Of a stretch of DNA of 64,000 bases, positions 20,596 to 64,000 are shown piece by piece. Within the stretch, counting starts at the first letter, position 1, and the number at the start of each line of letters is the position of its first letter. The position numbers were made by a program, and so were the translations under genes. The DNA comes from Chloroflexi bacterium bin125. GTDB lineage: Bacteria; Chloroflexota; Dehalococcoidia; Bin125. Under the pieces are notes generated by a model. The model did no database searches and was not told the DNA's origin. It saw only the letters and a list, made by a program, of their open reading frames with translations. Where the stretch lies: NCBI GenBank assembly GCA_002239025.1, contig MPNM01000006.1, positions 62,001-126,000 of the forward strand, in the 5' to 3' direction.

Positions 20596-22263
20596 TCAAG
20601 CGAAGACTTGGGTACTCAGCGCGGCGAGATTGCCGCGTCTGAGCGCGGCAATGACGGTAACTGGCAAGTAAGAACGATGAGAAGTGAAAAACAGGGTTGG
20701 TGGGCTTGACTGAACAATACCAAGAACCGACTCGGATTCGATCATCGCCCCGTCGGTCGGCATCGGGATCGTATAGGTCAAGGTGACCTGCTTGGGGGCA
20801 ATCTTGATGCGCTTGACGAAGTTCCTGATGAGGGACTTGCGCTCGGGGATGCTGCCGGCTTGCAGGAACTCGCGGAAATCGGCGACGTAGCGCTTGATCT
20901 CCCGGCTGGAGGGGAGTTCAGCTCTACGTTGTTCCAGTTGGAGCGTTGCGTTCTCGTGCGCGGCGGCGAGTTGGTCTTCCTGGCCGCGCAGCGAGTGGAT
21001 GCGGGGCGACAAATCCTGGTAGGTGAGGTCGCTGTTCTCCAGTGCGTCGTAGAGTTTGGCCAAACGCCTGCGCACGTCGGCGAGTTCAGTCTCAACTGCC
21101 TGCCGCTGGGTGTTGAGTTCGGCCGCCATCGCGTCGATTTCCTCGGCCACCATCTGAACCAGTTCGATGATCGTTTGCTCGTTGAGGATGCGCGTGAGGA
21201 CTTTGTGCGTGACCAGTTCCTCGAGCTTCGGCGCGCTGAGGTAGGGCGCTTGGCAAGCGCCGGCGCCTTCGCGGTGCAGGGTGTTGCAGACGTAGTAAGA
21301 GAATTTTCCGCCCTTGGCCCCGTGGCCGACGAACGACTTGCCGCAACGCCCGCAGCGCAGCAGCCCTGACAGCAGGAACTTGCTGCCGACTCCCCGCGGC
21401 GCACGCGCCTTGGGACTGCGTGCCTTGAGACCGCGCCCAACCGCCTCGAACTGCTCGCGCGAGACGATCGCCGGCCAGGCGTTCTCGACCCGGACCGGAT
21501 CGGGCGCCTGCCCGTCCTTGGCCGTGCGTCCCCAGACCGAGGTGCCGGTATAGGCCTCGTTGGTCAGGAGATAGTGCAGGCGGCGCTTGTACCAGCGCCG
21601 GCCTTGGATCGTGATACCGCGCTCATTTAGGTCGCGTGCGATCTCCTTGAGACCAAGGCCGCGCTGCGACATCTCGAAGATCTGCTTGACGATCGGCGCT
21701 GTTTGAGGATCGAGTATGAGCGTCGGGCGCTCCTTCGGACCGTCCTGGACCTTGACCCGCTCATAGCCATAGGGCGCCTTGGAGGCGAGGAAAAACCCGC
21801 GCGAGGCGGCCTCGCGCATGCCGCGCGTCACCTCCTGGGCGAGGTTCTCGGAGTAGAACTCATCGACGCTTTCGATGATCGCTTCCATCAGTTTGCCGGT
21901 CGGGGTGTCGTCGGCATGCTCGGTGATCGAGGTGACTCGGATCCCGCGACGGCGCAGCATCGACTTGAAGGCGACGGCGTGCTCGCGCTTGCGCGTGAAG
22001 CGCGAGAACTTCCAGACCAGGATCTCCTGGAACGGCGCGTCAGTCTGCGCCGCCTCATCCAGCATCTGGCGGAACTTGGGACGGTTGGCGACACGCCCGC
22101 TTTCGGCCTCGTCGACGTACTCGCGAACGACCACATACCCGTTTCGTTCAGCGAAATCCCGGAGCGCGCGAAGCTGCGCGGCGACCGAGAGATCGACGTC
22201 TTGACGGTCCGAGGAGACCCTGGCGTAGAGCGCCGCTGGAATCAGTTCGGGTGATTGATCCAT
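20596..22263 (-). CDS. large serine recombinase (integrase)
   Basis: A 555-residue site-specific recombinase. N-terminal resolvase domain with catalytic Ser17 in ALYARVSSDRQD and the Arg pair in KFSRFTRKREHA; then the recombinase domain (RGLGLKEIARDLNERGI); a zinc ribbon with CGRCGKSF and a later cysteine pair (YYVCN, GAC); and a long C-terminal coiled coil (about residues 375-450) with a terminal basic segment. Large serine integrases move phages and conjugative elements between attP and attB without host factors. AAAGGAG precedes the ATG. Transcribed leftward, toward the putative element end. Confidence 0.92.
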   Translation of the reverse strand: MDQSPELIPAALYARVSSDRQDVDLSVAAQLRALRDFAERNGYVVVREYVDEAESGRVANRPKFRQMLDEAAQTDAPFQEILVWKFSRFTRKREHAVAFKSMLRRRGIRVTSITEHADDTPTGKLMEAIIESVDEFYSENLAQEVTRGMREAASRGFFLASKAPYGYERVKVQDGPKERPTLILDPQTAPIVKQIFEMSQRGLGLKEIARDLNERGITIQGRRWYKRRLHYLLTNEAYTGTSVWGRTAKDGQAPDPVRVENAWPAIVSREQFEAVGRGLKARSPKARAPRGVGSKFLLSGLLRCGRCGKSFVGHGAKGGKFSYYVCNTLHREGAGACQAPYLSAPKLEELVTHKVLTRILNEQTIIELVQMVAEEIDAMAAELNTQRQAVETELADVRRRLAKLYDALENSDLTYQDLSPRIHSLRGQEDQLAAAHENATLQLEQRRAELPSSREIKRYVADFREFLQAGSIPERKSLIRNFVKRIKIAPKQVTLTYTIPMPTDGAMIESESVLGIVQSSPPTLFFTSHRSYLPVTVIAALRRGNLAALSTQVFA

Positions 22264-22601
22264 CGCAGTTCTCCTTTGCTCCGGGCCGCCACTCGCAATG
22301 GCGGCGGATCAATGTTCGAAACATCGTATCCCAGCCAGACAGCCCTCTCCAGATAGGGCAGCAAGTCCAATACAGAACGAAAGTCTGGGCCAGACCAGTT
22401 GATTGACAGGGGCAGCGCGGTTCTTCCATACAGCGCTCTGGCCGGACAGGATCACGGTATTGGACCCTCCGGACAGGTTGAGGATGCACTGCTTGAACTG
22501 CACACCGATTACATGCTCAATTCAGTAGTCCTGTACGTTCAGTGCACAGACAGTTGTCCGTTCTTGTGGAAGACTGTCCCGGTGCGAAGGGAGGTCGGCC
22601 G
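22264..22601. promoter_or_regulatory. divergent regulatory region between recombinase and HU gene
   Basis: This 338-bp gene-free spacer should hold the promoters of the leftward recombinase and rightward HU-like gene. It carries four copies of the pentamer GGACA on either strand (22444, 22471, and TGTCC at 22555 and 22575, the last two 20 bp apart). The same pentamer is strongly clustered in the spacer at 54526-54780. It may include the attachment site, as integrase genes often abut theirs; no core is identifiable here. Confidence 0.4.
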
Positions 22602-22925
22602 ATGAGCGAAACTCGTGCGAAGACGAAAGCGGAACTGGCGAGAGCGGTGTCCCAGCGCAGCAACGTTGCCCCGAAGGACGCGGAGCGGGTGTTGGAAGCG
22701 TTCGCCGACGTAGCGCTGGCGGAGCTCTCGGCGGATGGGCCGGGGGTGGTGACGCTCCTGGGCTTGGTCAGGGCCGATGTGGCGCCGCAGACGGGACGAG
22801 CCGAGCACATGGGCCGCAATCCGGCCACTGGTGAACCGATGACGATCGCCGCCCGTCCGGCGCGGTTGCGCGGCAAGGTCAGGCTGCGATCGCTCAAGCG
22901 GCTGCGCGACGTGCTTGAGTCGTGA
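22602..22925 (+). CDS. HU-family DNA-binding protein
   Basis: A 107-residue small basic protein of the HU/IHF family: N-terminal helices KAELARAVSQRSNVAPKDAERVLEAFADVALAEL, then the beta arm with GRNPATGEPMTIAARPARLRGKV, the hallmark of the DNA-bending arm, and a basic C-terminus. It bends DNA and could help assemble recombination or conjugation complexes of the element. The ATG at 22602 follows GGGAGG. It is divergent from the serine recombinase. Confidence 0.88.
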   Translation: MSETRAKTKAELARAVSQRSNVAPKDAERVLEAFADVALAELSADGPGVVTLLGLVRADVAPQTGRAEHMGRNPATGEPMTIAARPARLRGKVRLRSLKRLRDVLES

Positions 22926-23629
22926 ACGCTTCGAGGAAACAGGTTCGCAAGCGATCCCTCAGCCATCCTGGCCGGTAGAGCGCATCCCTCGGTTCAACCA
23001 GTCGCCGGAGGAACGGGCGACGAACGCATTGACTGACCAGATGGCGCCATGCCGCGAACTGCCTCGCGCATTGCCGTTTCCGATTCGCCCCGGCCAGCCA
23101 ACGGACAATCGGGCGGCGGAGGAATCTGGTAGTTGATGGCAGCGTGGTCTGGCCGCACGACGATCCGCTTCGAACCACGTGATGAGCTCCGCGCTCGGCC
23201 TCGTTCGGCTGCGCCCGGAGCTGCGCGGCGACCGAGAGATCGACATCGTGCCCGTCGCTGGAGACCCTGGCATAGCGAGCCGCCGGGGTCTGAGCTAACT
23301 CGTTATTCATCTTATGTTTCCTCTACGCCCTAGTGCGACCGTACCGGCGCGCACAGATTCTGAGCCTGGCGCAATTCCGGTCTCCTGTGCGCGCGGACCA
23401 GAATAGACGTTCTTTGTCTATCTGGTAGCCACAGTCTTCTACAGAGGACAACACCGGTTCATCAAGCGGAACACTCCAGCAAGCGATTTGGGCCGAATCC
23501 TCGTCAGCGGTCTCAACGCCCTTGAATCCCAAACAAACGTGTTGATAGATTGGCGCCGCATTGAACACGGGTTCTATTCGTCCATGCCATTTGCACGGAC
23601 TCGATGCGACGGAACAGGAGGGAGGGCTT
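22926..23629. other. gene-poor stretch with recombinase remnant
   Basis: About 700 bp without an intact gene. It contains the decayed 5' end of a second recombinase (about 23200-23311, minus). The 23312-23629 part, upstream of the small-protein/HTH cassette, should hold its promoter; I see no definite -10/-35 pair. No hairpin terminator was recognised after the HU gene. Confidence 0.5.
23200..23311 (-). pseudogene. truncated serine-recombinase N-terminus
   Basis: From an ATG at 23309-23311 the minus strand encodes MNNELAQTPAARYARVSSDG and then HDVDLSVAAQLRA, clearly the same as the N-terminus of the intact recombinase (PAALYARVSSDRQD, VDLSVAAQLRA). After about 45 residues the similarity stops and the frame continues into unrelated sequence. 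The catalytic serine region survives but the rest is gone, so it is a relic of a duplication or an earlier insertion. Confidence 0.8.
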
Positions 23630-23836
23630 GTGGATTCGACAGCAGCATTGACCGAGGAGCAGGAGCAACGGCGCCGGGAGGGCCTGCGCATGCTGGCGCG
23701 GATCATCGCGCGCCACTACCTCGAACAACCGGAGCAGCACCTGTCTGAGCCTGAACCAGCCGAGCCAGGAGAACGACCGGGCCGACAAAGAGCCAGCGCA
23801 GAGAGCCGGGAACCGGCCGCCAGGGAGGATGCGTGA
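23630..23836 (+). CDS. small hypothetical protein of the HTH cassette
   Basis: A 68-residue, charged, probably mostly helical protein (TEEQEQRRREGLRMLARIIAR, then a Pro/Glu/Arg-rich tail). No family recognised. The GTG at 23630 follows GGAGGGAGGG. Its stop overlaps the ATG of the first HTH gene (TGATG), so it is translated with the regulator cassette. Possible roles are an antitoxin-like or regulator-partner peptide; this is a guess from context only. Confidence 0.6.
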   Translation: MDSTAALTEEQEQRRREGLRMLARIIARHYLEQPEQHLSEPEPAEPGERPGRQRASAESREPAAREDA

Positions 23837-24078
23837 TGACACGACGAACCGGATCGCCGCGGGTGCGGCTGAAGCCCGAACCGCTCTGGGAGCGCATCAA
23901 CCGGCTCAACATCAGCCAGAACGAACTTGCCGAGCTGGCCGACATCTCGTCCGGCTATCTCTCGCAACTGATCAGCGGCCGCAAGAGTCCGTCGCCGGAT
24001 GTGCGCCGGCGCTTGCAGGCGGCCCTGGACATCGGCGGCTTCGACGAGCTGTTCGTTCAGGAGTACGAGGATGAGTGA
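23836..24078 (+). CDS. XRE-type helix-turn-helix regulator
   Basis: An 80-residue Cro/C1-type DNA-binding protein. The HTH reads LWERINRLNISQNELAELAD, followed by ISSGYLSQLISGRKSPSPDV, with the usual recognition-helix pattern. It is close to domain size with only a short acidic C-terminus, like phage and ICE repressors. The ATG overlaps the preceding stop, and the next HTH gene overlaps its end. Likely part of the switch that keeps the element quiescent. Confidence 0.82.
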   Translation: MTRRTGSPRVRLKPEPLWERINRLNISQNELAELADISSGYLSQLISGRKSPSPDVRRRLQAALDIGGFDELFVQEYEDE

Positions 24079-24355
24079 GCGAAACACTGACTCGGAGTTG
24101 CGGCCGGGCGTCTGCTTCTTGCCCGACGACTTTCCCGAGCGTCTCGAGTCGTTGAAGGAACTGACCGGCCTGTCCTGGGAGCGGATGGCTGCGGCGATGG
24201 GCGTGGACAGCCGGCAGTTGCACCGCTGGCGGAACGGGACGGCGCCCAGCGGCGAAGCGATGCTCTCGCTCGTGCGACTCGCGACTAAGGTGCCGAACGG
24301 CCTCCCGGAACTGTTGGACGACGACTCGCTGGTCGTACAACGAGAGCAACGTTGA
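24071..24355 (+). CDS. HTH protein, second of the cassette
   Basis: A 94-residue protein with an HTH core LSWERMAAAMGVDSRQLHRW followed by RNGTAPSGEAMLSLVRLA. The RWRNG motif and the leucine-rich helix after it are shared with the third gene of the cassette, so the two are duplicates. The ATG at 24071 overlaps the preceding gene by 8 bp. Expected to bind operator DNA; targets may include the GGACA-rich spacers seen elsewhere in the element (inference). Confidence 0.75.
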   Translation: MSERNTDSELRPGVCFLPDDFPERLESLKELTGLSWERMAAAMGVDSRQLHRWRNGTAPSGEAMLSLVRLATKVPNGLPELLDDDSLVVQREQR

Positions 24356-24947: not shown

Positions 24948-26675
24948 ATGGTCGGCGAACGACGGCTGAGGACGGAACAACGGCGACTCTTGCGACTGAT
25001 TGGGCTGATGCCGCTGGCATCGGCTGGCGACCTGGCCCCGATCCTGAATGTCCGGGAACCAGCCGTGCGGGCGCGACTGGCGAGGTTGCGCCAGGGCGGA
25101 TGGGCGGTGTCGATTCGGCGCGGGATGACCGAGCCGCCACAACCGCGCTGGTTCCTGACCAGCCGGGCGCTGGCCGAGCTCTACGCGACCGACCACACGC
25201 ACCTCTCCCCGCGTGAACTGGCCCGCGGCGACGGGGGCGAGCCGCCCGCCGCGAGCCGAGCCGACTGGCTGCCGGTCGCGCTCGACCATGAGCATCTCGG
25301 ACACAATGAAGACCTGGGCCTGTCGCCATTCCGGTCGGGCTCGGATCAGGCGGCGGACAGACACGAGCATCCGCCCTGGACGGCGACGGCTCGCGGGGTG
25401 CAGGTCGCCTTGCGCCGGCTGGCGATCCTGGAGACGGTCTACCGCCTCGCGCCGGCGCTCACAGCGGACGGCCACCTGGACCGGCCGGAGTGGGACGCGC
25501 CTCCCGGGTTGAGCGACTTCCGCCTGATGCGACTGGGCGGCTACTTCTGGGCCGTGGCTCGCTACGGCGCGGATTGCTGGATCCCCTTTAGCTACGCCGG
25601 GCTGCACGCTACCGAGCGGGTGCTCAGACGCAAGCAGCAGCACCGTTTCTGGAATCTCGATTGCTACTCGGCCGAGCGCGAGCGCCTCTTCCGGATCAGC
25701 AACCGGGTCTTCTACGAGGACCCCGAGCAGGCGGTCGAGCCCTCGGCCCTGGTCGTGGTCGGCGCCGACCGCTGGGCGGTCGACCTGGCGCGGCGCACGC
25801 TGGACGCGGAGACGCCGACGCTGTTCTGCACGCCCGACCGGCGCTGCTCGGGGCCGGTCGAGCCGCGAGTGTCGCGCGACCTCGTCTCCGACCCCCAGAC
25901 GCGGCTCAACCCGGGCCGCTCCGAGCGGTTGGCCCGCTGGCTGCGCCGCCAGCCCGACCTGGACACGCTCAACGGTCTGCTGGCCTACCGGTTGTTCTTG
26001 CTGATCGCCGAGTTCCCGGCGATGCGCGCCGGATGGCTGCGCGAGATATCGGGTGGCTCGGCAACCGGCGTCGGAGCGATTCTGCAGCGCTTCCTGGCTA
26101 CGGGATTGGCCGCGAGATACGAGGGACGCTACTACCTGGCCGAGGCGGGCATGCGCCGCGCCGCCAACCTGAGCCGGGTACGGCCGGCTCAGATTCGCAA
26201 CCGACACGGCGCCTACCTGCGGCGCGCCTACCGACTGCACGAGCGGCGCCATGACGAGGGCGTAAATCGCCTGGTGCTCGGGTTTGCTCGCGAGGGCGTC
26301 CGGGCTTATGCCGGCTGGCGCGGCGAGGTCAATATCCCCCGCCTGACCCAACTGCGACCCGACCTGCTGCTGCTCGTGACCAGTGGTCCGTTCGGTCCCG
26401 GACCCTATGCGCTGGAGTTTGAGCGAAAGGCCGAGTATCGGAGTGGTGTTGCCCGCAAGCTCGGCCCTCACCGGCGCGCGGCGGCGGTCGGACAGGGACT
26501 GCCTGTGCTGTTCGTCTGCGAGACGGAGCGTGCTGCGGCGCGGTTCATTGCCGCCCGCGGCCGGCTGCCGCTGCTCGCGACTTCGCTCGAAGCGGCAGTG
26601 GCCGGACCGCTGACCGGAGCGGGCAGCGTATGGAGCGAAGCGGGCCGTTCGGTGCGGCTTGAGTGCGAGTCCTGA
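24948..26675 (+). CDS. replication-relaxation family protein (first of two)
   Basis: A 575-residue protein resembling the replication-relaxation (Replic_Relax) family of mobile elements. An N-terminal winged-helix region (RRLLRLIGLMPLASAGDLAP...) leads to a second wHTH-like segment (YRLFLLIAEFPAMRAGWLRE). The C-terminal nuclease-like core has LRPDLLLLVTSG, YALEFERKAEYRSG and GLPVLFVCETERAAARF. These proteins are thought to act in replication or nicking of the element, though the biochemistry is poorly known. A distant paralogue lies at 54781-56466. The start is taken at the ATG at 24948, after GGGACGGAG. Three GGACA boxes lie upstream. Confidence 0.72.
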   Translation: MVGERRLRTEQRRLLRLIGLMPLASAGDLAPILNVREPAVRARLARLRQGGWAVSIRRGMTEPPQPRWFLTSRALAELYATDHTHLSPRELARGDGGEPPAASRADWLPVALDHEHLGHNEDLGLSPFRSGSDQAADRHEHPPWTATARGVQVALRRLAILETVYRLAPALTADGHLDRPEWDAPPGLSDFRLMRLGGYFWAVARYGADCWIPFSYAGLHATERVLRRKQQHRFWNLDCYSAERERLFRISNRVFYEDPEQAVEPSALVVVGADRWAVDLARRTLDAETPTLFCTPDRRCSGPVEPRVSRDLVSDPQTRLNPGRSERLARWLRRQPDLDTLNGLLAYRLFLLIAEFPAMRAGWLREISGGSATGVGAILQRFLATGLAARYEGRYYLAEAGMRRAANLSRVRPAQIRNRHGAYLRRAYRLHERRHDEGVNRLVLGFAREGVRAYAGWRGEVNIPRLTQLRPDLLLLVTSGPFGPGPYALEFERKAEYRSGVARKLGPHRRAAAVGQGLPVLFVCETERAAARFIAARGRLPLLATSLEAAVAGPLTGAGSVWSEAGRSVRLECES

Positions 26676-27041: not shown

Positions 27042-30000
27042 TTGGCCGGCGCGCAGCCCGCGTTTGGCCAGGACGAACCGCAGCCCCCTGCCGCGCCCGG
27101 CGGATTGCACGTCTCCACCGAGATCGGCTCACTTGATGTCGATGTCGACTGGGACGACGTGGACGACGCCACGCGCTACGTGGTCCGCTGGCGGACAGCG
27201 GAACCGGGCGGGAAGCTCAACAAGGGCGAAGAGGTCTCGGTCTCCAGGGCGGAAATCACGGTCGCGGGCACCGGCGCCTGGGTCGTCCGGGTGCAGGCCT
27301 GTAACGACGCGGGCTGCGGAACGCCCAGCGCCGAGAAGTTCGAGGTCGAACCGGCGCCCGAGCCGGAATCGACGCCTGAGCCGGAGTCCGAGCCTGAGCC
27401 TGTTGCAGACACTGAGAACGCGCAGGCGCAGACCGAGCTGACGGTCTCCGTCCGCGCCAGCGCGACCGCTCCCTTCGCCGGCGAGCAAGTCCGCTTCAGC
27501 GCCGACATCGACGGCGCGCCCGAGGGCGAACAACCGACGTATCAATGGGAGTTGAGCTACGGCGGCGACCTCTGGTTCCCCAGCGGCAGCGACCCGACCT
27601 TCTCCTACCTGCCGCACCAACCCGAGACGGCCAGCGTGCGGGTCAGCGTGCGCTATGCCTCAGGGGTGTCGGCCAGGTCGGCGCCGCTGAGCGTGACCTG
27701 GCGGGTGTTCGAGCCCAAACCGCAACCGCCGACCGCGGAGGGCGCCAGGGGAGCGGTAGAGCAGGTCTCGGTCACGATCCGCCACGACGAGACCGTGCCC
27801 AGACCGTTCCAACCGGGCAAGCTGGTGGCGCTGGTGAGCAATCTGCCCGACGGCGAACAGCCGCGCTACCGCTGGGAGATGAACCTGGGCGGCGACTGGT
27901 GGGTCGTCGGCAGCGAGCGCGCGTTCCCCTGGAGCGCCACCCTGAAAGAGACGGTCCGGTTCCGGGTGACGGTCTTCATTGGATCGGACCAAGCCGTCAC
28001 CTCTGACGAGCTAGCACTCGACGGGACGGCAGGCAAGGCCACCCGGGACGTGAACGCGGCGGCGACATCCGTGGCCCTGATCGGAAACAGCGGGCAGACG
28101 TCCTTCGGGAACCCGCAGCTCACCTCCGATCGAGCTCAGGCGTTCACGACGGGCAGCCACAGCACGGGCTACAAGCTGACCAGCGTGCAGATCGACTTCA
28201 AGACGAATGCGGGGGCGGCATACGCGTCCGACGTGAAGATCATGAACGACGGCGGTGCTGGACCGGGCAGCACCACGCTGGGCACGCTGACCGATCCGGC
28301 GTCGTTGGTCGCGGGGCTCAATGAGTTCACGGGAGACGTCGACCTGGCCGCCAGCACGACCTATTACGTCGTCATTGACTCGTCTGTTGCCGACTTCGAC
28401 ACAATATTGGACGGAACATCATCGAATGACGAGGATTCGGGCGGCGCGGCCGGTTGGAGCATCGGGGATGACGGACATTCCCGGGGTGCGACCAGCACCG
28501 GCGCATGGTCCTCGAACGCAAATTCGTTGAAGATCATCGTCAACGGTTATGAGAAACAGGCGCCATCGGTAAGCAACACGGGCCAGACCTCCGTTGCGTC
28601 ACGGTCACTCGCGAACAATCTTGCCCAGGCGTTCACGACCGGGGACCATGCGAAGGGTTACACGCTCACCGCGCTCGGGTGGCGACTCTCGTCCGTCGGG
28701 ACAGCAGAGCCGAGCCATACCGTCAAGATCTGCCCTCAGAGCGGCACTGAGCCGTCCACTTCCTGCCTGGGCACGTTGGAGAACCCACTCTCTCTGACGG
28801 TCGGAACGAACCGCTTCACGGCAGCGGGCGGCGGCATAAGGCTCGACGCAAACACCACGTACTTCATGGTCCACGAACTCGTCACGGCAGGAACCGGGTC
28901 CTATGCCGCTGCGCGGACGAACTCCGACGACGAAGACTCGGGCGCGGCCTCCGGGTGGAGCATCGGCAACGACTTCCTGGTCGATGTCAGCGGCACGTGG
29001 CACCCCCTCACAAGTCCATTGCAGATCTACATCGAGAGCGATCCGAACATCGCGCCCGCCGTGGCCAGCGCCGAGATCGACGGCACCAAGCTGGTGCTCA
29101 CCTTCGACGCGGATCTCGACACCGCTTCGGGCACGGCCGCGGGCGCGTTCACGATCAAAGCCGACGGGACCGCGCAGACGGCCACCGCGATCACGATCGC
29201 CGACAGGACGGTCACGCTCACGGTGCCGACGGTCACCCCGGGCCAGACCGTCACCGTCAGCTACACCAAACCCGCCTCGAGCCCGCTCAAGGGCGCGGAC
29301 GACTCGGAGGTGGATGGGTTCACCGATCAGGCGGTGACCAACAACACCTTGTCGATACGGCTGGTCCAAAACACCTCTCAAGCGGACACAGTTAATGGAC
29401 CGCTCGACGACGATCGGGCGCAATCGTTCACGACGGGCAGCAAGAGTTTGGGCTACCGGCTGACCAGCGTGCAGCTCGGCGTCGACGTGGCAGGGTCGCC
29501 GAGCTATACCGCGACGATCGTGCGCGACACCGGCGCCGGACCGGGCAACCTCGCGGTGGCCACGCTGGCGAAGCCGTCTTCGTTGACCGTGGGGTATGAG
29601 AACGAGTTCACGGGCGAGGTCGACTTGCTCCCCAGCACGACCTACTTCTTCAAGGTCGACATGTCAGCGAGCGCCCTCGCCGTGGAGCTGAAGCTAGCGC
29701 TCGTGAACGGCGAAGTCGGCGAGCCCGGCTGGAGCATCGGCAACGACCATCACGAACGACTTTGGAGCAGCAACGGCGCCTGGAGTGCCGTATTTCAGTC
29801 GTTGAAGATCCAGGTCAACGGCTATGCGAAGGCGCCCGCCCTGGACAAAGCGGAGATCGACGGCGCCGAGCTGGTGCTCACCTACGACGGGAATCTCGAC
29901 ACCGCTTCGGCCACGGCCCCGGGCGCGTTCACGATCAGCGTGGGCGGCGGGGCCGCCCAGGCGGCCACCGCGATCACGATCGCCGGCAAGACGGTCACCC

Positions 30001-47973: not shown

Positions 47974-48030
47974 CGGGGCCGCTCTCCGCGTTGATGGGAG
48001 AGCGGCCCCGAGATGCGCCTCTGGAGAGGC
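47974..48030 (-). terminator. double hairpin downstream of the second ssb gene
   Basis: A 14-bp stem (CGGGGCCGCTCTCC / GGAGAGCGGCCCCG, 47974-48010) followed by a small CGCCTCT/AGAGGCG hairpin. It is the duplicated counterpart of the hairpins at 47439-47496. Confidence 0.5.
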
Positions 48031-48051
48031 GTCGGTCGGCGTGGTGCGTGA

Positions 48052-52423: not shown

Positions 52424-52990
52424 TCAGCGGCGACGCCCGGCGCGCGCGACCGAGGCCAGTCGGCCAAGCACGATCCGATGCGCGAGCCAGCCGGTCCAAC
52501 CGAGGCCGAAGGCGTTCAGCGCTACGACTTGGAGGTCGTAGCCGAGCGCGACCGGAGCCGCCAGCAAGAGCAGCAGGAACGGCAGCAGCACGACCCGCCA
52601 GGAGCGCCCGCCTGTGTCGTTCGAGGCCGGCGTTGACTCGGTCGCGGGATTCGGGGGTGCCGGCACGTCCTCAGCGCGGTAGGCCGACCAGATCGACTCG
52701 CCACCGAGCGTCTCCAGCCGTCGGATGATCCGCTCGCGCGAGCAGCCGGCCGAGTTCGTGCCCCGTGCTCCGACACGGGGGCAGCGCACGTCGATCCCGT
52801 CGCCGTCGGGCCGCTGGCGGAAGGCCAGCAGGTCCTGCTCCGATCCGTGGCAGGCGGCCGCCGTCCAGAACCAGCCGCGTTCAAAGCGCACCCGTTGCCG
52901 GGGTGCAATCAGTTCGGCGATCCGCGCGGCCGTGGGGCCGACGTAGCGCCCTCTGACTCTCGTTCCGTTCGTCTCGTTCGTGTCCTTCAT
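52424..52990 (-). CDS. hypothetical membrane protein with N-terminal Cys/His region
   Basis: A 188-residue protein. The N-terminal cytoplasmic half has AACHGSEQDLLAF, DVRCPRVGARG and SAGCSR, which could bind zinc. The C-terminal part has two membrane segments (VVLLPFLLLLLAAPVALGYD and LGWTGWLAHRIVL). No family recognised. The first minus-strand gene after the repeat-rich spacer; AAAGGAG precedes ATG 52990. Confidence 0.65.
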   Translation of the reverse strand: MKDTNETNGTRVRGRYVGPTAARIAELIAPRQRVRFERGWFWTAAACHGSEQDLLAFRQRPDGDGIDVRCPRVGARGTNSAGCSRERIIRRLETLGGESIWSAYRAEDVPAPPNPATESTPASNDTGGRSWRVVLLPFLLLLLAAPVALGYDLQVVALNAFGLGWTGWLAHRIVLGRLASVARAGRRR

Positions 52991-56655: not shown

Positions 56656-57276
56656 ATGCGAGGACGACTGATTAGACATCCGTTGAGCAGAGGCCGATGG
56701 GTGGTCGGCGCCTGCGCGCTGTTGATCGCGGCTGCCGTTGCGCTCGCGGCCTTGCAGGCGACCAGTGCCCAGACGCCGCCCTCGGGCGCCGAGCTGGAGT
56801 GGGTCAACCAGGACGAGGACTGGATCGAGCGCAAGAAGCACGGCGAGTTCCGCGCCCGGCCGATCTTCAACCAGCGGCTGGCGACCCTCTACTACGGCCT
56901 GCGCGACTCAGACACGGGCGAGTGGCTGACCGCCATGTACCGCGTCTCGGGCGGGGAGAAGGAAAGAGATGAGGGCTGGGAGTACGAGTTTGACTACCCC
57001 GCCTTGGACGAGCACGAGGCGATCGACCCGGACAAGACCTACCTGATGGTGATGCTGGCCGCGTCCGCGCGTCAGCCGACCCCGACCACGTTCTACGCCG
57101 TCGTCCCCCTGCACCAGCCCGGAGGGCTGCTGGGCAGCCTGCTGCGCGCGCTGGACCCGGACGGCTGGGCCAAGGCGGCCGCCGGCTGGGTGATCGAGGG
57201 CGTGCACGGCACGCTCTGCGGCGTCTTGACGGCGCTGACCGCGGAAGAGCCGCGCAGCTGCCGGGACGAGGAGTAA
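56656..57276 (+). CDS. secreted/periplasmic-type protein of the transfer operon
   Basis: A 206-residue exported protein. Signal peptide: basic start, hydrophobic VVGACALLIAAAVALAALQA and TSAQ cleavage-like end. The mature part has a beta-rich domain (ATLYYGLRDSDTGEWLTAMY) and a C-terminal hydrophobic/helical end with a Cys pair (GTLCGVLTAL, RSCRDEE). No named family. It is the first gene of the conjugation operon, with the VirB6-like gene starting 6 bp later, so it is probably an extracellular component of the secretion channel. The ATG follows AAAGG. Confidence 0.7.
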   Translation: MRGRLIRHPLSRGRWVVGACALLIAAAVALAALQATSAQTPPSGAELEWVNQDEDWIERKKHGEFRARPIFNQRLATLYYGLRDSDTGEWLTAMYRVSGGEKERDEGWEYEFDYPALDEHEAIDPDKTYLMVMLAASARQPTPTTFYAVVPLHQPGGLLGSLLRALDPDGWAKAAAGWVIEGVHGTLCGVLTALTAEEPRSCRDEE

Positions 57277-57282: not shown

Positions 57283-58257
57283 ATGTCCGACATCATCACC
57301 GGTACCCCCGCCGATCTGACCTACGGCCACCTGCTGGTCCAGGAGGCCTGGCTCGCGGTCTGGGTCGTGACCTCGGCCGCGCTCGCCTTCATCATCGGCT
57401 GGATCGGCCTCACGCTGATCACCCAGGAACCGCTGGGCGCCAGGCAGGCCGGCTGGCGTGAGTTGATTCCCCGGCTCATCTTGGGCGTCGTCGCGGCGGC
57501 CGCCTCGCTCTGGTGGTGCGCGCTCGTGATCGACGTCGCCCACGCCGTCTCCGGGTTCATCGCGGCGACGCTCGAAGTGACCCCCTCCGACCTGCTCCGC
57601 GCGCCGGTCGAGACGCTGCTCACGGCGGTCGAGGGCGGCTCGGTCGGGCTCGCCTTGCTGTTGGCCCTGATCTATCTGATCTACGGCTTTTTCTGTCTTT
57701 ACCTGCTGATGCAGATGGTGCTGCGCCTGGCGCTGTTCGACCTCTTGCTGGTTCTGGCCCCGGCGGCGATGGGCCTCTGGATCCTGCCGCACTCGTCGGG
57801 TTGGAGTCGGCACTGGCTGCGCCTGTTTGCGACCACGGTCTACCAGCAGGCGGTCCAGCTGATCGCGCTCGCCCTGGGCATCGGCTTCCTCGGTGAGCTG
57901 GCCTCAATCGACCTGTTCGAGCCGGCCCGCGATCTGATCTGGAAGCTGCTCATGTCGGTGGCCTTCATCTACCTCGCCACCCGGGTGCCCTCAATGCTGG
58001 GCAACTCGAGCCCCTTCGACGCCTGGCTGCAGACGCTCTACTTCGGCTTCTCGCTGCCCGCCAACCTGGCCCGCTCGGTCACATCGGTTGCGGCTCTGGG
58101 CGCCGGCGGCGGAGCGGCCACGCGCACCGTCGCAAGCAGCGGCGGGTCCGGCGGTTCCTCGGGCGTGGGCGGCGCGACCCGCTCGGCGGCCGAACTCTCG
58201 ACCCCCCAGGGCGGCTCGGAGCAGTCCGGTCGCGGCCCCCGGAGCCAGAACGAATAG
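57283..58257 (+). CDS. VirB6/TrbL-like polytopic membrane protein
   Basis: A 324-residue protein with five to seven membrane segments (WLAVWVVTSAALAFIIGWIG, ILGVVAAAASLWWCALVI, LALLLALIYLIYGFFCLYLL and more) followed by a low-complexity Gly/Ser-rich tail. This matches the VirB6/TrbL class of inner-membrane channel subunits of type IV secretion. It directly precedes a VirB2-like pilin. Assigned from topology and neighbours; sequence identity to named VirB6 is not evident by eye. Confidence 0.75.
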   Translation: MSDIITGTPADLTYGHLLVQEAWLAVWVVTSAALAFIIGWIGLTLITQEPLGARQAGWRELIPRLILGVVAAAASLWWCALVIDVAHAVSGFIAATLEVTPSDLLRAPVETLLTAVEGGSVGLALLLALIYLIYGFFCLYLLMQMVLRLALFDLLLVLAPAAMGLWILPHSSGWSRHWLRLFATTVYQQAVQLIALALGIGFLGELASIDLFEPARDLIWKLLMSVAFIYLATRVPSMLGNSSPFDAWLQTLYFGFSLPANLARSVTSVAALGAGGGAATRTVASSGGSGGSSGVGGATRSAAELSTPQGGSEQSGRGPRSQNE

Positions 58258-58374: not shown

Positions 58375-58644
58375 ATGGATGATCTGACCCAAACCCTCTC
58401 GAATCTCGTTGGGATCTTGCTGGGCGTGGTCGGCGGGGTGGGCGTCGCCTACTTCGTCTTCGGCGCCTACCAGTACCTGACCGCCTCCGGCGCGCCGCAC
58501 CAGATGGAGCGCGGCAAGACGGCGATGCTCACGGCGCTGGCCGGCATTGTACTCGCCATGGTCGCGTTCGGCGTGGTCGAACTGGTGATCGACGCGGTCT
58601 CCAACCCGGTCGTCACGATCGACGCCCCGCCCGACCCGGAGTAG
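58375..58644 (+). CDS. VirB2-like pilin subunit
   Basis: An 89-residue protein with two hydrophobic helices (VGILLGVVGGVGVAYFVFGA and AMLTALAGIVLAMVAFGVVE) joined by a short basic loop with QYLTASG and RGKT, typical of VirB2/TrbC-like pilins. No cleavable signal peptide is obvious. The ATG follows AAAGGA. It lies between VirB6- and PrgI-like genes as expected for a conjugation operon. Confidence 0.78.
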   Translation: MDDLTQTLSNLVGILLGVVGGVGVAYFVFGAYQYLTASGAPHQMERGKTAMLTALAGIVLAMVAFGVVELVIDAVSNPVVTIDAPPDPE

Positions 58645-58677
58645 GTCGCCGGACCTCTTCAGAAAGGAGGTTGTCCC

Positions 58678-60513
58678 ATGGATGAACACGAGGTGCCGAC
58701 CCACGTGCAGGCCGAGGACCGCGTCCTGCTCTGGTTCACCTTCCCCCAGATCGTGGCCCTGACCGCGGTGGCGGCTGTGTCCTACGGCATCTACCAGGTC
58801 GCGCCGTTCGGTCCCGAGGCGGTGCGGATTGGGCTCGGCCTGGTCTTCGCTCTGGCCGGCATCGCGCTGATCGTGGGCCGGGTCGGCGGCCGCCGCCTGC
58901 CGGCGGTCGCGGCCGACCTGCTCCGCTTCGGCTTCGGCGCGCGCCGCTTCGCCGGTCTCCCGGCGCAGCTGGTGCGGGTCGAGCCGCCCGCGCCGCCGGT
59001 CAAGCGGCGAGCGGCGGAAGCGGAGGACGATGCGGCCGGCAGCGTGGCCCAGAAGTCCACTGAGGCGAGAGCCAAACCATCCGCCGACCTTGGCGCCGAC
59101 CTGGCGCAGCAATCGGCCAAGGCGGATGGTCCGTTCCGCCGCCGCGTACGCAAGCTGGCCAACCTGAAGCGTTCGCCGCGACCGCGCACGCGAGGCGAGC
59201 GGATGCCGTTCAAGCCGCGCAACTGGTTCCGCAAGCGCGACCGGCGTCAGCGCTCGAAGCGCGAGTTCGACGAGGCGCGCGACGCGTTGGCCCGGGAGCA
59301 GCGGGAGCACCGATTCAGTCGGTGGCCCTCGCTCCTGGGCGGCGCGGCCGCGCTGGCCGTGGTCGCCTCGGTCGCGGTCTGCACGCCGCCCCATGCGCTG
59401 GCGGACGAGGGCGAGCAGGAGACCTGGAGTTCGGACGAGATCGAGTTCGACCCGCCGCCCTTGATCCCGGGCCGGCGGCTGTTCATCGAGCGCCTGACCG
59501 TGACCGCCTCGGCGGCCACGGTCGTGCTCAAAGCGGCCGCCAACCTGGAGGTCGAGGTGCGCGCCTTCGGCGGCCCCGACGGACGCGAGCCCAAGTTCCG
59601 GCGCGAGAACACCCTGGGCCGGGGCGGACGCTCGAGCTACCTGATGCCGCTCGACGGCCCCGCGCCCTCGTTCACGTTCGCCTGGCGCGACGAGTACGGC
59701 CAGGCGGGCGCGCTCTCGCTGAGCGGGGATCAGATCCCGTATCCGCTGCCATCAGCCGAGGGCGAGCTCTGCGAGCTGCGGCTGGTCTCGCTGGTCTGGC
59801 GCGCGGAGCGGATCGAGGGCGGCCTGCGCTCCGAGTGCGTCAGCGCGCTGGAGGAGCCGGTCGAACTGCAGACCGCCGCCGGCCACGCCGAGCTCAGCCA
59901 GACGGCGCTGCTGCCGGCCGAAGTGACCCAGGTCTCGGGAACGCTGATCGTTTCGGCTGGCAGCCGTGAGGCGAGTGTCGCCTTCGCCCCGGACGCCGAG
60001 ACGAGGTTCGAACTCCCGTTGCCGGCGGAGTCCGGCATCCTGGCGGTCGAGGTCGCAGCGGCGCTGAGCGCCGATCTGCGGATCCCGCTGCCCGACCTGG
60101 TCCAGCTGACCCACCACCCGCGCTGGGTCGAGCAGCGCACCGAGACCGTCACCCTGACCCGTCCCGGGACGAGCCAGACCGTCTCTGAGACGGTCACGCT
60201 GAGCGACCCGGAGGGCAACCCCGTCGCGTACACGATCTCGGCCACCCTCTCGATCCCATCAGCCCAGGTGCAGAAGGACGTGACCCTGGAGATTGTGCAC
60301 CCGGAGCACGTGCGGGCCGAGCTGGTCCAGCGCCCGGCGCTGACCAAGATCCGCTCGGAATCGCTCGCGCTCTCCTCGGCCGTCGCCGCGGACGACGCCT
60401 ACCGGGCGCTGGTCCCGCCACAGCAAGAGCCGGAGCGGCCGGCCTCGGTCCAGACCCGGCTCTCGCCGGCGGAGCGGAACGAGCTGTTCCTGATCCTGGG
60501 TTGGGGGCCCTGA
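58678..60513 (+). CDS. PrgI (VirB3-like) protein fused to an extracellular beta domain
   Basis: A 611-residue protein. Residues 1-95 are a PrgI-type domain (VPTHVQAEDRVLLWFTFPQI, two membrane segments, GRRLPAVAADLLRFGFGARR). A basic, Arg/Lys-rich cytoplasmic linker follows (about 100-210), then a third membrane segment (LLGGAAALAVVASVAVCTPP) and about 370 residues of beta-rich exported sequence with Thr/Ser/Glu-rich repeats. Classical PrgI/VirB3 proteins are only about 100 residues, so this is a fusion that would link the inner-membrane ring to an outside domain. AAAGGAGG precedes the ATG. Confidence 0.76.
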   Translation: MDEHEVPTHVQAEDRVLLWFTFPQIVALTAVAAVSYGIYQVAPFGPEAVRIGLGLVFALAGIALIVGRVGGRRLPAVAADLLRFGFGARRFAGLPAQLVRVEPPAPPVKRRAAEAEDDAAGSVAQKSTEARAKPSADLGADLAQQSAKADGPFRRRVRKLANLKRSPRPRTRGERMPFKPRNWFRKRDRRQRSKREFDEARDALAREQREHRFSRWPSLLGGAAALAVVASVAVCTPPHALADEGEQETWSSDEIEFDPPPLIPGRRLFIERLTVTASAATVVLKAAANLEVEVRAFGGPDGREPKFRRENTLGRGGRSSYLMPLDGPAPSFTFAWRDEYGQAGALSLSGDQIPYPLPSAEGELCELRLVSLVWRAERIEGGLRSECVSALEEPVELQTAAGHAELSQTALLPAEVTQVSGTLIVSAGSREASVAFAPDAETRFELPLPAESGILAVEVAAALSADLRIPLPDLVQLTHHPRWVEQRTETVTLTRPGTSQTVSETVTLSDPEGNPVAYTISATLSIPSAQVQKDVTLEIVHPEHVRAELVQRPALTKIRSESLALSSAVAADDAYRALVPPQQEPERPASVQTRLSPAERNELFLILGWGP

Positions 60514-60839
60514 TGCTGCGCCGAACACTCGCGATCCTCACGCTGGGCGCTGCGGCCCTGGTCACGACGGCGGCCGCGCCCGACGTGGACGCGGCCGAGC
60601 GAGCGATGCTCGACGCCTTCGACGCGGCGCTGACCGCGGTCGCCTACGCCGCCTCCGGCCTGGCCCTGTTCGGCCTGGTCTGGGCCGGCTTCCTGCTCAT
60701 GGCCGACGGCGCGGAGGGCCGCAGCGCCCGTGGCCGCTCGGCCGTCTTCCTGACTGTCGCTGGACTTGCGATCGCACTCTCAGCCAAGGGCCTCGCGGCG
60801 CTGATCTCGGCCGGCGTGATCCCGATTCCGATTCCTTGA
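60513..60839 (+). CDS. second VirB2-like small membrane protein
   Basis: A 108-residue protein: a signal-like N-terminus (LRRTLAILTLGAAALVTTAA), then two hydrophobic helices (VAYAASGLALFGLVWAGFLL and AVFLTVAGLAIALSAKGLAA). This is the VirB2 pilin pattern with a cleavable leader. Its ATG overlaps the preceding stop (TGATG). With the one at 58375 the operon has two pilin-like subunits. Confidence 0.7.
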   Translation: MLRRTLAILTLGAAALVTTAAAPDVDAAERAMLDAFDAALTAVAYAASGLALFGLVWAGFLLMADGAEGRSARGRSAVFLTVAGLAIALSAKGLAALISAGVIPIPIP

Positions 60840-60856
60840 ACGAAGGAGATGTTCCG

Positions 60857-63088
60857 ATGAAACGACTGTTTGCCAGAACGAACACCCTCGCGGCGCCAAC
60901 ACTAGGGGGCGCCGCTCTGCATGAGCCGCCCGATGACGCGGCCCGGCCTGAGCAGCCGCTGCCTGAACTGCCGCTCTGCTTCATGCTCTCCCACGTTGAG
61001 CCGGACGGCCCGGTGCGCTTGGACGGGGTCAAGCTGACCCTGACCGAGCTGATGGGGCTGGAACTGGACGGGCCCAAGCTGGGCGCCTTCGCGGGCCTGC
61101 TCAACGCCTGCGACTTCCCCCTGCAGCTCTTGGTGCGCCAGCACCCGCCCGACCTGGAGCGAATGCGGCGCGAGCTGGCAGAGGCGCAACCGGGCGACCT
61201 GCCGGAGCAGACCCGTGACGCGGCCGAGTCCCAACGCCGCCTCTTGACCGAGTTGGAGTCGCGCGAGGGCATCCTCGACCGCCGCTTCTATGCGGTCTGC
61301 GAGCAGGAGCACGCGCAGGAGCTGCGCGGCCTCCTGGCCCGCACCGGGCTCTCGATCCATCCACTCAAGGATGAAGCGCTCGGTCGCCTCGTGGTCGCCT
61401 CGGCCCTGGGCGGCTCGCCCGCGCGCAGCGGACGAGACGAGCCGGTCGAAGTCCTGCTCAACCACCGCGACATCCGTCTCGGCGGACGCCTGGCCCGCTC
61501 GCTGCATCTGGCCAAGTGGCCGCGTTCGCTCGCGCCCGGATTCCTGCAGCAGCTGATGGCGACCGGCGCGCCGATGGACATCGCCCTGCACCTGGGGCCG
61601 ATCCCATCCGAACAGGCGGCGCGCCAGCTGGAGTGGCAGAAGGTCAGGTTCGAGTCGGCCCGTTCACTCTCGCTCAGGCGCGGCAAGACGATGTCGCCCG
61701 AGGCCGAGATCGCTCTCGAAGACGTGAGCCGGCTGCGCGACGACGTGCAGCGCGGCCGTGAGCGGCTGTTCCACGCCTCGCTCTCCCTGACCCTGCACGC
61801 GGACGACCCCGAGACGCTGGACGAGCTGACCCAGCGCGCCTCGGCCCACTTCGCCGCCGCCCTGGGCCAGCTCGATCCTTTGCCTTTCCGCCAGCGCGAA
61901 GGCCTGCTCTCGACCCAGCCGCTGGCGCTCAACGCGGTCGCGGCCTGGCGCACGCTGGACACCTCGTCCGTGGCCCGCTGCTTCCCCTTCTCGCCGCCCG
62001 ACCTCGACACCCGTTCGGGCGCGCTCTACGGGATCGACATGCGCGCCTGCGCCCCGATCGTCTACGACCCCTGGGACGGCACCCACCTCAACGCCAACAC
62101 AGCGGTGCTGGCGCGGTCCGGCTCGGGCAAGTCGTTTGCGACCAAGTTGGGCGTCTTGCGCGGCATCTGCCGGGGCGTGGTCGCCTACGTGATCGACCCT
62201 GAGGGCGAGTACGCCGACATGGCCCGCTCGGCCGGCGGGCGGGTGCTCTCGCCCGGTGTCGCGGGTCAGGGCATGAACCCGTTCGTGCTCGACCGCACCG
62301 ACCCGGAGGAACTGCTCCAGCGGATCGGCTCGCTCAGGCGGCTGATCGAGGTGATGGTCGGCGAGCGGCTGGGGGCCGAGCGGCGGGCGGCGCTCGATCA
62401 CGCGCTGGCCAGCTACTACGCGCGGCCCTCGGAACGCACCGGGTTCCGCGACTTCTACCGCTTCCTGGAGGGGGACGATCCCGAGGGGCTGGCCAAGCTG
62501 TTGCGCCCATTCGCCTCGGGCAGCCTCAGGCACCTGCTCTCGGACGAGGGCGACGACCTGCTGCACAACGAGGCCCTGGTCACGGTGTTCGACCTCAGGC
62601 TGCTCGAACCGGAACTCAGACCGGCGGCGGCGATGGTCTGCACCGAGACCGTCTGGGCGGCGGCCGCCCGCGACCCTCGTCCGCGCCTGCTGGTCGTGGA
62701 CGAGGTCTGGTCGATCATGCAGCATCCCGAGGGCGCCGCGTTCATGGTCTCGATGGCCAAGCGGGCGCGCAAGCACCGCCTCGGCCTGCAGTTCATCACC
62801 CAGGACGTGCAGGACCTGCTCTCGGAGGACCACTCGCGCACGATCACCGGGCACTCCGGCCGAGCGCTCTTGCAGAACGCCGCGTTCAAGCTCCTGCTCC
62901 AGCAAGACGCAGCTGCGATCTCTACCGTCGCGGACGCGTTCGACCTGCCCGAGGACCTGCAGCGTTGGCTCGTCTCCTGCCCCAGAGGCGATGGACTCTT
63001 GCTGGCCAAGGGCGAACGGTTCCCGATCCGGATCGAGGCGACGGCCGAGGAGACCGAAGTGATCGAGTGGCGGCCGGGCCGGCACTGA
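60857..63088 (+). CDS. VirB4/TraC-type conjugation ATPase
   Basis: A 743-residue secretion ATPase. The Walker A motif ARSGSGKS is at about 418-425 after the typical YGIDMRACAPIVYDPWDGTH lead-in; Walker B LLVVDEVW is at about 610; the arginine-rich KRARKHRLGLQFITQDVQDL and ALLQNAAFKLLLQQD segments follow, all VirB4 hallmarks. It energises pilus assembly and substrate transfer at the inner membrane. The ATG 60857 follows GAAGGAG; a TTG seven codons upstream is less likely. Confidence 0.92.
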   Translation: MKRLFARTNTLAAPTLGGAALHEPPDDAARPEQPLPELPLCFMLSHVEPDGPVRLDGVKLTLTELMGLELDGPKLGAFAGLLNACDFPLQLLVRQHPPDLERMRRELAEAQPGDLPEQTRDAAESQRRLLTELESREGILDRRFYAVCEQEHAQELRGLLARTGLSIHPLKDEALGRLVVASALGGSPARSGRDEPVEVLLNHRDIRLGGRLARSLHLAKWPRSLAPGFLQQLMATGAPMDIALHLGPIPSEQAARQLEWQKVRFESARSLSLRRGKTMSPEAEIALEDVSRLRDDVQRGRERLFHASLSLTLHADDPETLDELTQRASAHFAAALGQLDPLPFRQREGLLSTQPLALNAVAAWRTLDTSSVARCFPFSPPDLDTRSGALYGIDMRACAPIVYDPWDGTHLNANTAVLARSGSGKSFATKLGVLRGICRGVVAYVIDPEGEYADMARSAGGRVLSPGVAGQGMNPFVLDRTDPEELLQRIGSLRRLIEVMVGERLGAERRAALDHALASYYARPSERTGFRDFYRFLEGDDPEGLAKLLRPFASGSLRHLLSDEGDDLLHNEALVTVFDLRLLEPELRPAAAMVCTETVWAAAARDPRPRLLVVDEVWSIMQHPEGAAFMVSMAKRARKHRLGLQFITQDVQDLLSEDHSRTITGHSGRALLQNAAFKLLLQQDAAAISTVADAFDLPEDLQRWLVSCPRGDGLLLAKGERFPIRIEATAEETEVIEWRPGRH

Positions 63089-63137
63089 GCCGTCAACTCC
63101 ACCAATCCCAGAACCACCAACTGAAAGCAACTACACC

Positions 63138-64000
63138 ATGAGACTCAATCCATTCAAATCGTTCGGGCGCCGTGCCAGGCCATCCGAGCCGGTGCTGCTG
63201 GCAGTCACGCCGCCGCGCAGCGGCCAGCGCACGCTCCTGGGCGTGGAGAACCTGCTCCAGTCGATCGCCGTGCCCGAGCCGTTCTCGCTCGAACTGGCCG
63301 GCGACGAACGGGGCGTGACCCTGTTGGTCCGCTGCCTCGCGGGCGAGGTCGTCGCCGGTCAGATCCACGCCCGCTATCCCCAGGCCCGGATCCGCCAACT
63401 GTCTCACCAGGACGATCCACTGCGCTCAAGCGACGACGAGCAAACCTGGAGCCTGAGACTGCGCTCCAGCGGTCCCGACTACGTGCCCTTGCGCGTATTC
63501 CGCGACGACGACTTGCTCGATCCCGGCTCCGACCCCCTGCTCGCGCCCCTGGGCGCGCTCTCGGGGCTCAAGCAGGGAGAACGGGTCGTCGCACGGCTGC
63601 GTCTGCGCTCGCTCGGTCCGGACTGGTCGCGCGGCTACCAGGAGAAAGCGCACGAGCGGCCCGGACAGACAAGAGCCGTTCCATCCTCCGCAGAGCAGCC
63701 TCAGAGCGGGGCCGACCCGTTGGCGCTAACCGTGCTCGGTCTGGTCGCACTGGGCGCCTTTCAGGGCTACACCTGGCTCCAGGCGGGAGAGATCTGGAAC
63801 CTCGCCGCGCTCTGCGCGGGCGCCGCCGTCGCGCTGATCGGCGGCAGCTGGGCCTGGCGGCGCTGGAAGCGCTCGCGCCGCCGCGTGCACGACCCGCAGC
63901 TGATCAAGGAGAAGGTCTCGCGCGTCGCCTTCGAGGGCGAACTGGAGATCGTTGCCATCCTGCCTCCAACCGCTAACGCCGACCGGGCGACCGAGCTGCT
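63138..64000 (+). CDS. probable conjugative ATPase / coupling protein, N-terminus only
   Basis: The first 287 codons of a gene that continues past the window. It begins MRLNPFKSFGRRARPSEPVL, has an alpha/beta N-terminal domain (FSLELAGDERGVTLLVRCLA), a proline/glutamine spacer, and two close membrane segments (LALTVLGLVALGAFQGYTWL and LCAGAAVALIGGSWAW) followed by a basic region. This layout fits the membrane-anchored N-terminus of a VirD4/HerA-like coupling ATPase, which is the gene expected after VirB4. No ATPase motif is inside the window, so the call rests on context. Confidence 0.55.
   Translation, partial: MRLNPFKSFGRRARPSEPVLLAVTPPRSGQRTLLGVENLLQSIAVPEPFSLELAGDERGVTLLVRCLAGEVVAGQIHARYPQARIRQLSHQDDPLRSSDDEQTWSLRLRSSGPDYVPLRVFRDDDLLDPGSDPLLAPLGALSGLKQGERVVARLRLRSLGPDWSRGYQEKAHERPGQTRAVPSSAEQPQSGADPLALTVLGLVALGAFQGYTWLQAGEIWNLAALCAGAAVALIGGSWAWRRWKRSRRRVHDPQLIKEKVSRVAFEGELEIVAILPPTANADRATEL

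Follow-up and report, generated by a model that had tools for sequence, protein, structure and literature searches.

The nearest described precedent for the element reported here is the set of Dehalococcoides ssrA genomic islands, which carry the serine recombinase DsiB (PMC3146451). In the accessible text of that report, these islands use a single transfer-messenger RNA (tmRNA) gene, which they enter at the T-loop, and have a 20-bp repeat and a different, 6-gene module, with no type IV secretion system (T4SS) reported. Other serine recombinases at tRNA genes are rare and keep to single genes, the cases given in the available part of PMC3218068 being phiRSM1 (tRNA-Ser) and the actinomycete integrative and conjugative elements (AICEs) of Mycobacterium (tRNA-Leu), and the Islander study, as far as its accessible text goes, knows tRNA-gene targeting for tyrosine recombinases only (PMC4383910). 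Here, we analyze a window of 64,000 nucleotides from Chloroflexi bacterium bin125 (assembly GCA_002239025.1, 3.68 Mb in 66 contigs), namely positions 62001–126000 of the 141,513-base contig C19 (MPNM01000006.1), which we also read past the window to the contig end at window coordinate 79513. We think it likely that the window holds an integrative and conjugative element (ICE) whose CcrB-like serine recombinase acts at TGGTGG, where the 3' CCA of a tRNA gene lies. We regard the body of this ICE as ordinary and its mode of integration as the novel part.

Insertion at tRNA Genes

The recombinase of the window scores 155.6 bits against the NCBIfam model of CcrB, the SCCmec recombinase (NF047343), for which the cut-off is 900; thus, it is related to CcrB but is not a member of that family. 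The recombinases of the window and its relatives form two sister clades with support of 100/100, type A (33 rows) and type B (20 rows, including the window's). A tally of label changes on this tree gave 13 and 9 and, having no shuffle control, carries no weight here. Insertion sites were counted for the 32 type-A copies with a readable 3' side and for 22 type-B rows, one of which (L084) is just 26% alike; 17 truncated rows, two rows at contig ends, and duplicates with the same end were left out, and the counts are of sequences rather than of independent events. Of the 32 type-A copies, 21 adjoin an antisense tRNA at its CCA end, which lies 60 nt from the end of the match in 20 of them and 66 nt in the other; the chance of finding a CCA end in such a window is about 1.3e-4. 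Eleven anticodons are represented at type-A copies: Arg(ccg, tcg), Ala(cgc, ggc, tgc), Glu(ttc, ctc), Met(cat), Ile(gat), Tyr(gta), and Val(cac). In the remaining 11 type-A copies, TGGTGG precedes a type-B end (7) or other DNA (2), or no core is seen (2). None of the 22 type-B rows lies at a tRNA gene, and their conserved sequence mostly stops at C[CT]ACCA.

Close relatives of one recombinase occur at different tRNA genes within a single genome. In G013 (G and C numbers designate related genomes and contigs), recombinases that are 97.0% identical are found at tRNA-Ile(gat) and at tRNA-Ala(ggc), and copies in G010 that are 94.6–96.8% identical sit at Ala(ggc), at Ala(cgc), and at a third place. 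Both ends were located for two type-A elements of the closed chromosome OX638292.1, each of which contains the T4SS core: G120a, from 372,222 to ~430,431 (58.1 kb), and G120b, from 940,631 to ~1,007,040 (66.3 kb). At the far end of each, the reverse complement of the recombinase-side arm follows TGGTGG, a match that none of 300 shuffled arms gave in either case. We lean toward a CCA-reading clade, in which one enzyme could place its element at nearly every tRNA gene that encodes a CCA end while leaving that gene unbroken, with the sister clades carrying the recombinase on opposite sides and their elements stacking in tandem arrays.

The host gene g18 lies beside tRNA-Ala(cgc) in G006 and G014 and beside tRNA-Ile(gat) in G010:C2 (L298, 65348–68179); the tRNA-Ala(cgc) of G010, elsewhere in its genome, bears a type-A element. 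A rearrangement made by the recombinase between two tRNA CCA ends is a possible source of this shift.

Gene Content and Conserved Core

Genes were identified with Pfam, PHROGs, and NCBIfam. The features of the window are as follows.

17076–20697: outer layer of the island, from host DNA to the element end; collinearity with G014:C8 stops at 17075
17184–18971: cadherin-like open reading frame (ORF) in the outer layer (Pfam)
19572–20492: alpha/beta hydrolase in the outer layer (Pfam)
20596–22263, minus strand: large serine recombinase of type B (CcrB-like) with Resolvase, Recombinase, and Zn-ribbon domains; the final ~34 codons read into flanking DNA
20698–20703: TGGTGG core, the left end of the element; homology to the recombinase end of G009:C25 starts at ~20698
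22602–22925, plus strand: HU-like DNA-binding protein (PF00216, 1.3e-13)
23863–24078, plus strand: XRE-type helix-turn-helix (HTH) regulator (PF01381, 4.1e-9), recurring beside relatives' recombinases
24071–24355, plus strand: XRE-type HTH regulator, likewise recurring beside relatives' recombinases
24948–26675, plus strand: second, diverged Replic_Relax-like protein, outside the shared core (hhalign)
27042–41249, plus strand: surface protein of 4735 amino acids, fibronectin-III (fn3)/SWM/cadherin-like, with 24 fn3 stretches; cargo
41428–43788, minus strand: core helicase
44804–45832, minus strand: core DUF6094 methyltransferase (PF19587, 1.8e-28)
46889–47407, minus strand: core RadC-like JAB protein
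47517–48420, minus strand: two core genes for single-stranded DNA-binding proteins (SSB)
48585–49652, minus strand: core Cas4/RecE-type exonuclease (phrog_1990, 4.4e-16)
49747–50661, minus strand: core Rad52-type annealase (PF04098, 6.5e-31)
50832–51881, minus strand: core DnaG-type primase (CHC2 and Toprim)
51878–52327 and 52424–52990, minus strand: core proteins without family assignment
53680–54525, minus strand: core protein with a weak HTH match
54781–56466, plus strand: candidate MOBC-type relaxase, with two predicted winged-helix plus alpha/beta units, the second with D442..E459xE461
56701–57276, plus strand: conserved protein of the T4SS operon without family assignment
57283–58257, plus strand: VirB6/TrbL (PF04610 matches in 17 of 17 members)
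58375–58644, plus strand: T4SS pilin, VirB2-like (PF18895, 1.1e-11)
58678–60513, plus strand: protein with a PrgI/VirB3-like N-terminus and a long additional domain fused to it (PF12666 in 11 of 18 members, without a match in this copy)
60513–60839, plus strand: second pilin-like protein (PF18895, 0.0014, under the cut-off)
60857–63088, plus strand: VirB4 ATPase
63192–65699, plus strand, mostly beyond the window: VirD4/TraD coupling protein (PF10412, 1.2e-5; TraG-D_C, 5.2e-4)

Much of this had been named in a first-pass annotation of the window, and the profile searches bear it out: the serine recombinase, the stack of HTH genes (the HU-like gene and the two XRE-type genes, 22602–24355, plus strand), the recombination kit (helicase, RadC, two SSBs, Rad52, DnaG-type primase, and Cas4/RecE-type nuclease), the VirB2/B3/B4/B6 operon, and the 14-kb adhesin-like gene, which is the fn3 protein. 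The annotation began the element at 20596; the recombinase ORF does end there, and the true left end lies at 20698. It also proposed extending the contig rightward, where the element indeed continues with VirD4, a PIN gene, a restriction enzyme, a transposase remnant, and QueC up to the break at 79513. The restriction enzyme, a 1407-amino acid restriction-helicase-methyltransferase (IIG/ISP-like), has Type IIG as its best PADLOC model (1.6e-92). A repeat at 73.0–73.5 kb was considered as an RNA and rejected, since it reads by eye as a transposase remnant, and the block containing QueC (L003, 12163–17064) has a second copy, 74% alike, in the genome's own contig C15.

All called genes were mapped onto 23 neighborhoods, five of which were included for the recombinase alone. 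A core of ~25 kb, with both of its modules together, is present in 14 of the 23 (the genome's own C41, G120a–c, G123, G121a–c, G126, G002, G006, G009:C25, G010, and G013), and contig ends interrupt four further neighborhoods (G011, G004, G009:C39, and the genome's own C37). One module runs helicase, methyltransferase, RadC, SSB, nuclease, Rad52, and primase on one strand; the other runs VirB6, pilin, PrgI, pilin, VirB4, and VirD4 on the opposite strand. The Replic_Relax gene mostly follows VirD4 and lies between the modules in the window, G006, and G009:C25. Because the same order recurs in other genomes, the grouping of these genes is beyond chance. All ORFs of the core are open, and most genes are 79–94% alike to those of C41. 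The adhesin is absent from the corresponding place in C41 and has a counterpart in G009:C25, and is therefore cargo, as is the restriction gene.

The host genome is of Dehalococcoidia type (SAR202-like, Chloroflexota), and sponges are a habitat of such bacteria. VirB4 (E ≤ 1e-20) is present in 20 of 120 related genomes; of the 14 further members of the genus listed, 11 have it, and the host genome itself has three copies, one of them a fragment. The VirB4 relatives come from metagenome genomes labeled Dehalococcoidia, Chloroflexi, or SAR202, apart from a short contig labeled Gammaproteobacteria, which is probably misbinned. In a plasmid collection, 1253 records matched VirB4, every one below 60% identity, and none of nine candidate viral contigs carried it. 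GC content rises at ~24 kb from 0.60–0.64 to 0.67–0.71. Rfam searches of four stretches returned tRNAs and a thiamine pyrophosphate (TPP) riboswitch, and nothing else; the riboswitch lies in the host part, at 3504–3614.

Limits of the Island

The left end reads ..AAAAACAGGGT and then TGGTGG at 20698. Host homology stops at 17075, and 17076–20697 therefore belongs to the same island as its outer layer. A dispersed repeat of ~95 bp lies at 20562–20657, just beyond the left end, and has dozens of similar copies in this genome and those of the genus. The tRNA-Phe gene at 15424 was rejected as a target, being 5 kb off the end and syntenic in relatives.

On the right, C19 breaks at 79513 within an IS21-type repeat (IstB was assigned by eye). 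Its last 127 nucleotides (79387–79513, the end of L003) are also found at the termini of at least seven other contigs, where the edge of an IS21-type insertion sequence (IS) breaks the assembly. The host block to the left of the island adjoins tRNA-Ala(cgc) in G014:C8 and G006:C10, and in G014:C8 the homologs of window 13678–17075 and of the genome's own contig C28 from 9461 onward are contiguous, ~425 bp apart. C28 bears this genome's own tRNA-Ala(cgc), and the homology to G014 starts at 9461, which is its CCA end. There, the C28 sequence reads ..GTTCTTGCTTTTAGGAAGTT and then TGGTGG, nearly the same as the end of a sister element in G009:C25 at tRNA-Ala(ggc). That sister extends from its tRNA gene (10067) to a type-B end (78691), 68.6 kb, and its type-B recombinase is 88% identical to the window's; the parts of the window's element sum to at least 58.8 + 9.5 kb. 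In G006 and G008, tRNA-side ends match type-B arms at 15–18 of 19 positions. Judging from these comparisons, the right end is probably the tRNA-Ala(cgc) junction on C28. The absence of a right boundary, which the annotation would have taken as refuting the element, is not what relatives show; for the window's own copy the boundary is placed provisionally, by comparison.

The tRNA-Ala(cgc) locus is present in 14 of 15 genus genomes. Its 5' side is alike (72–80% over ~1.5 kb) and its 3' side varies among genomes, the change point being the CCA end; sequence comparison thus marks the locus as an insertion hot spot. No convincing direct repeats of ≥14 nt were found at both ends. Long repeats are not expected with a shared core of ~3–6 nt, and inverted arms were searched for instead.

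Candidate Relaxase and T4SS

The annotation had seen no recognizable relaxase of the MOB classes and suggested that its two replication-relaxation proteins might fill that role. The first statement does not hold: Replic_Relax (PF13814) belongs to the MobC relaxase superfamily (CONJscan; PMC5357655, Table 1), and MOBC proteins are, in the available text of PMC12857230, related to PD-(D/E)XK nucleases, TraX having an N-terminal winged helix. The suggestion fits the protein encoded at 54781–56466, which is the one conserved with the T4SS; the one at 24948–26675 has no close relative in the other compared loci and is a remote, full-length homolog of the former (hhalign probability 96.5, E 9.8e-10). 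PF13814 is matched at E ≤ 0.01 in 38 of 38 aligned members of the family of the former (best 7e-11). The predicted fold of the 54781–56466 protein (mean predicted local distance difference test score, pLDDT, 93.3; ~550 amino acids) consists of two winged-helix plus alpha/beta units. Residues 279–356 match MarR-type structures (Z 13.2, root-mean-square deviation (rmsd) 2.0, 74 aligned). The whole model matched mainly winged-helix chains, and the C-terminal domain was therefore folded alone. Most structures matched by this unit (pLDDT 89.9) are PD-(D/E)xK nucleases, with Z scores of 5.5–8.6. Several are nicking enzymes, including the Nt.BspD6I nickase (6qnz; Z 7.8, rmsd 4.0, 138 aligned); the fold match is only moderate, since the best Foldseek E-value is 0.0099. 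In the alignment of relatives, H395, P441, D442, E459, E461, and R463 are invariant. On this modeled winged-helix and PD-(D/E)xK architecture, 54781–56466 encodes a candidate MOBC relaxase.

Profile matches place all of the MPF_FATA-type components PrgI/VirB3, VirB4, and VirB6 in the element family. PrgI (PF12666) is matched in 11 of 18 family members, the window's own copy giving no match, and of the VirB4 family models CD1110 scores highest (216.6 bits), under its cut-off of 325 bits. The PrgI-like protein has a long C-terminal extension behind its second likely membrane segment. The combination of PrgI, VirB4, and PF18895 pilins without VirB1 (58375–60839 and VirB4) resembles the T4SS of Patescibacteria, on whose origin these elements might bear.

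Discussion

VirB4 and a coupling protein are present, a candidate relaxase gene is linked to the T4SS, with Replic_Relax recognized in all 38 aligned members by homology and fold, and the ends are located on the left at 20698 for the window and on both sides for G120a and G120b. The full VirB/VirD4 set, the conserved synteny, and the recognizable ends support the large conjugative element that the annotation had proposed. Gene content, synteny, junction positions, the inverted arms of two relatives, and the fold of the relaxase domain all point to a mobile element that is real and largely intact, and that probably transfers itself between cells by conjugation.

From these data we infer excision, transfer, the roles of single proteins, and the link between C19 and C28. 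The CcrB-like recombinase would cut and join at TGGTGG, which is the CCA-3' terminus of the tRNA gene in reverse, so that integration would leave the tRNA gene complete on one side of the element and move the formerly downstream DNA to the other. In type B, as in the window, the recombinase gene would occupy the tRNA-distal end (20698), the tRNA-proximal end probably being tRNA-Ala(cgc) on C28; in the sister type A, it would occupy the tRNA-proximal end. The excised circle would be nicked by the MOBC relaxase and the strand passed by VirD4 to a channel of VirB4, VirB6, and PrgI with VirB2-like pilins. Processing of the incoming strand would fall to primase, SSB, Rad52, and nuclease.

Several observations weigh against this reading. 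Neither VirB1 nor VirB8 was recognized with Pfam, and the window's relaxase scores 22.4 bits against a Pfam cut-off of 25.3. The far-end arm of G002 is weak, with six mismatches and matches in 14 of 300 shuffles, and none was found for the other tRNA-linked copies within the stretches searched. The C28 end is alike to the window's type-B arm at only 11–12 of 19 positions, and C28 and the G009:C25 sister share end sequence and dispersed repeats only. Moreover, the right half is unassembled: C19 ends in the shared 127-mer and C28 starts with its reverse complement, the wrong sense for a single IS copy to join the two directly, and for these reasons the right end is one that we infer.

The island could instead be a dead mosaic, in which remnants of different elements accumulated at a single tRNA gene, the recombinase, T4SS, and adhesin came from different sources, and no mobile unit is left. 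The outer layer at 17076–20697, the dispersed IS5 and IS21 pieces, the occurrence of the core in either orientation relative to the recombinase, and a cargo orientation unlike that of relatives (the restriction module g55–g58 is inverted relative to G011:C18) would all fit; the open core ORFs, their similarity to C41, and a sister in G009:C25 with the same plan and both ends speak against it, and we regard it as rather unlikely. A single element might also own both a type-A and a type-B recombinase, which would face each other over one shared attP in the manner of a split ccrA/ccrB pair, as 7 of 32 type-A ends read A-arm, TGGTGG, and type-B arm with the genes tail to tail. Tandem insertion at one tRNA gene would yield, and so explain, identical junctions, however, and A-arms delimit G120a and G120b on both sides, in a chromosome without type B; in G009:C25 the recombinase end is of type B and the arm beside the tRNA gene is B-like. 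This makes a facing pair improbable.

The T4SS might instead export proteins, rather than DNA, to the sponge or to neighbors, as has been proposed for Patescibacteria, whose set of PrgI, VirB4, and pilins without VirB1, as given in the accessible text of PMC12102498, is similar. Here, though, relaxase and VirD4 are retained with the T4SS across relatives in a unit with mobile ends, and we consider secretion of this kind very improbable. It is hardly credible that the tRNA link is passive, with tyrosine-integrase islands owning the sites and the serine recombinases riding as passengers: islands often occupy tRNA 3' ends (PMC4383910, available part), yet the 60-nt spacing is fixed in 20 of 21 copies, the arms stop at TGG in the same place, and inverted arms recur at the far end.

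If one enzyme of such a clade can indeed act at the CCA ends of nearly all tRNA genes, its integration strategy would be a generalist one that uses harmless sites. Natural variants could then be used to test how large serine recombinases choose attB, and such recombinases could serve as a broad-host integration tool. The family also offers a plausible route of conjugation in these uncultured marine, often sponge-dwelling bacteria. In the literature searched, which covered few subscription papers, we found no case of one serine recombinase clade at many tRNA genes; the search entry for PMC10083194, on multi-targeting serine recombinases, has no occurrence of 'tRNA'. Searches for conjugative elements in Dehalococcoidia, SAR202, or sponge settings, covering titles, abstract openings, and part of PMC12102498, gave no paper on this route.

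Among known systems, the MPF_FATA systems and the Patescibacteria T4SS share PrgI, VirB4, VirB6, PF18895 pilins, and the lack of a detected VirB1 with the window's element (PMC12102498, accessible text), which differs in its linked relaxase and integrase and in a VirB4 below the CD1110 cut-off. A streptococcal class of integrative and mobilizable elements likewise combines a serine integrase, a Replic_Relax MobC relaxase (PF13814), and VirD4 in one element; as described in the available part of PMC5357655, that class is mobilizable only, whereas the window's element has its own VirB4, VirB6, PrgI, and pilins, a recombination kit, and a relaxase that is a two-unit protein of ~550 amino acids. 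phiRSM1 and the Mycobacterium AICEs, in the cited account, use one tRNA each, in contrast to 11 anticodons for one clade here. The DsiB islands, as far as their report is accessible, come closest: they belong to the same bacterial class, carry at one end a serine recombinase that is CcrB-like, target a tRNA-like gene, and form tandem arrays. The junctions of the window's family, however, are tRNA CCA ends rather than a tmRNA T-loop, and the family differs from those islands in its many tRNA genes, its TGG(TGG) core, and its full conjugation set.

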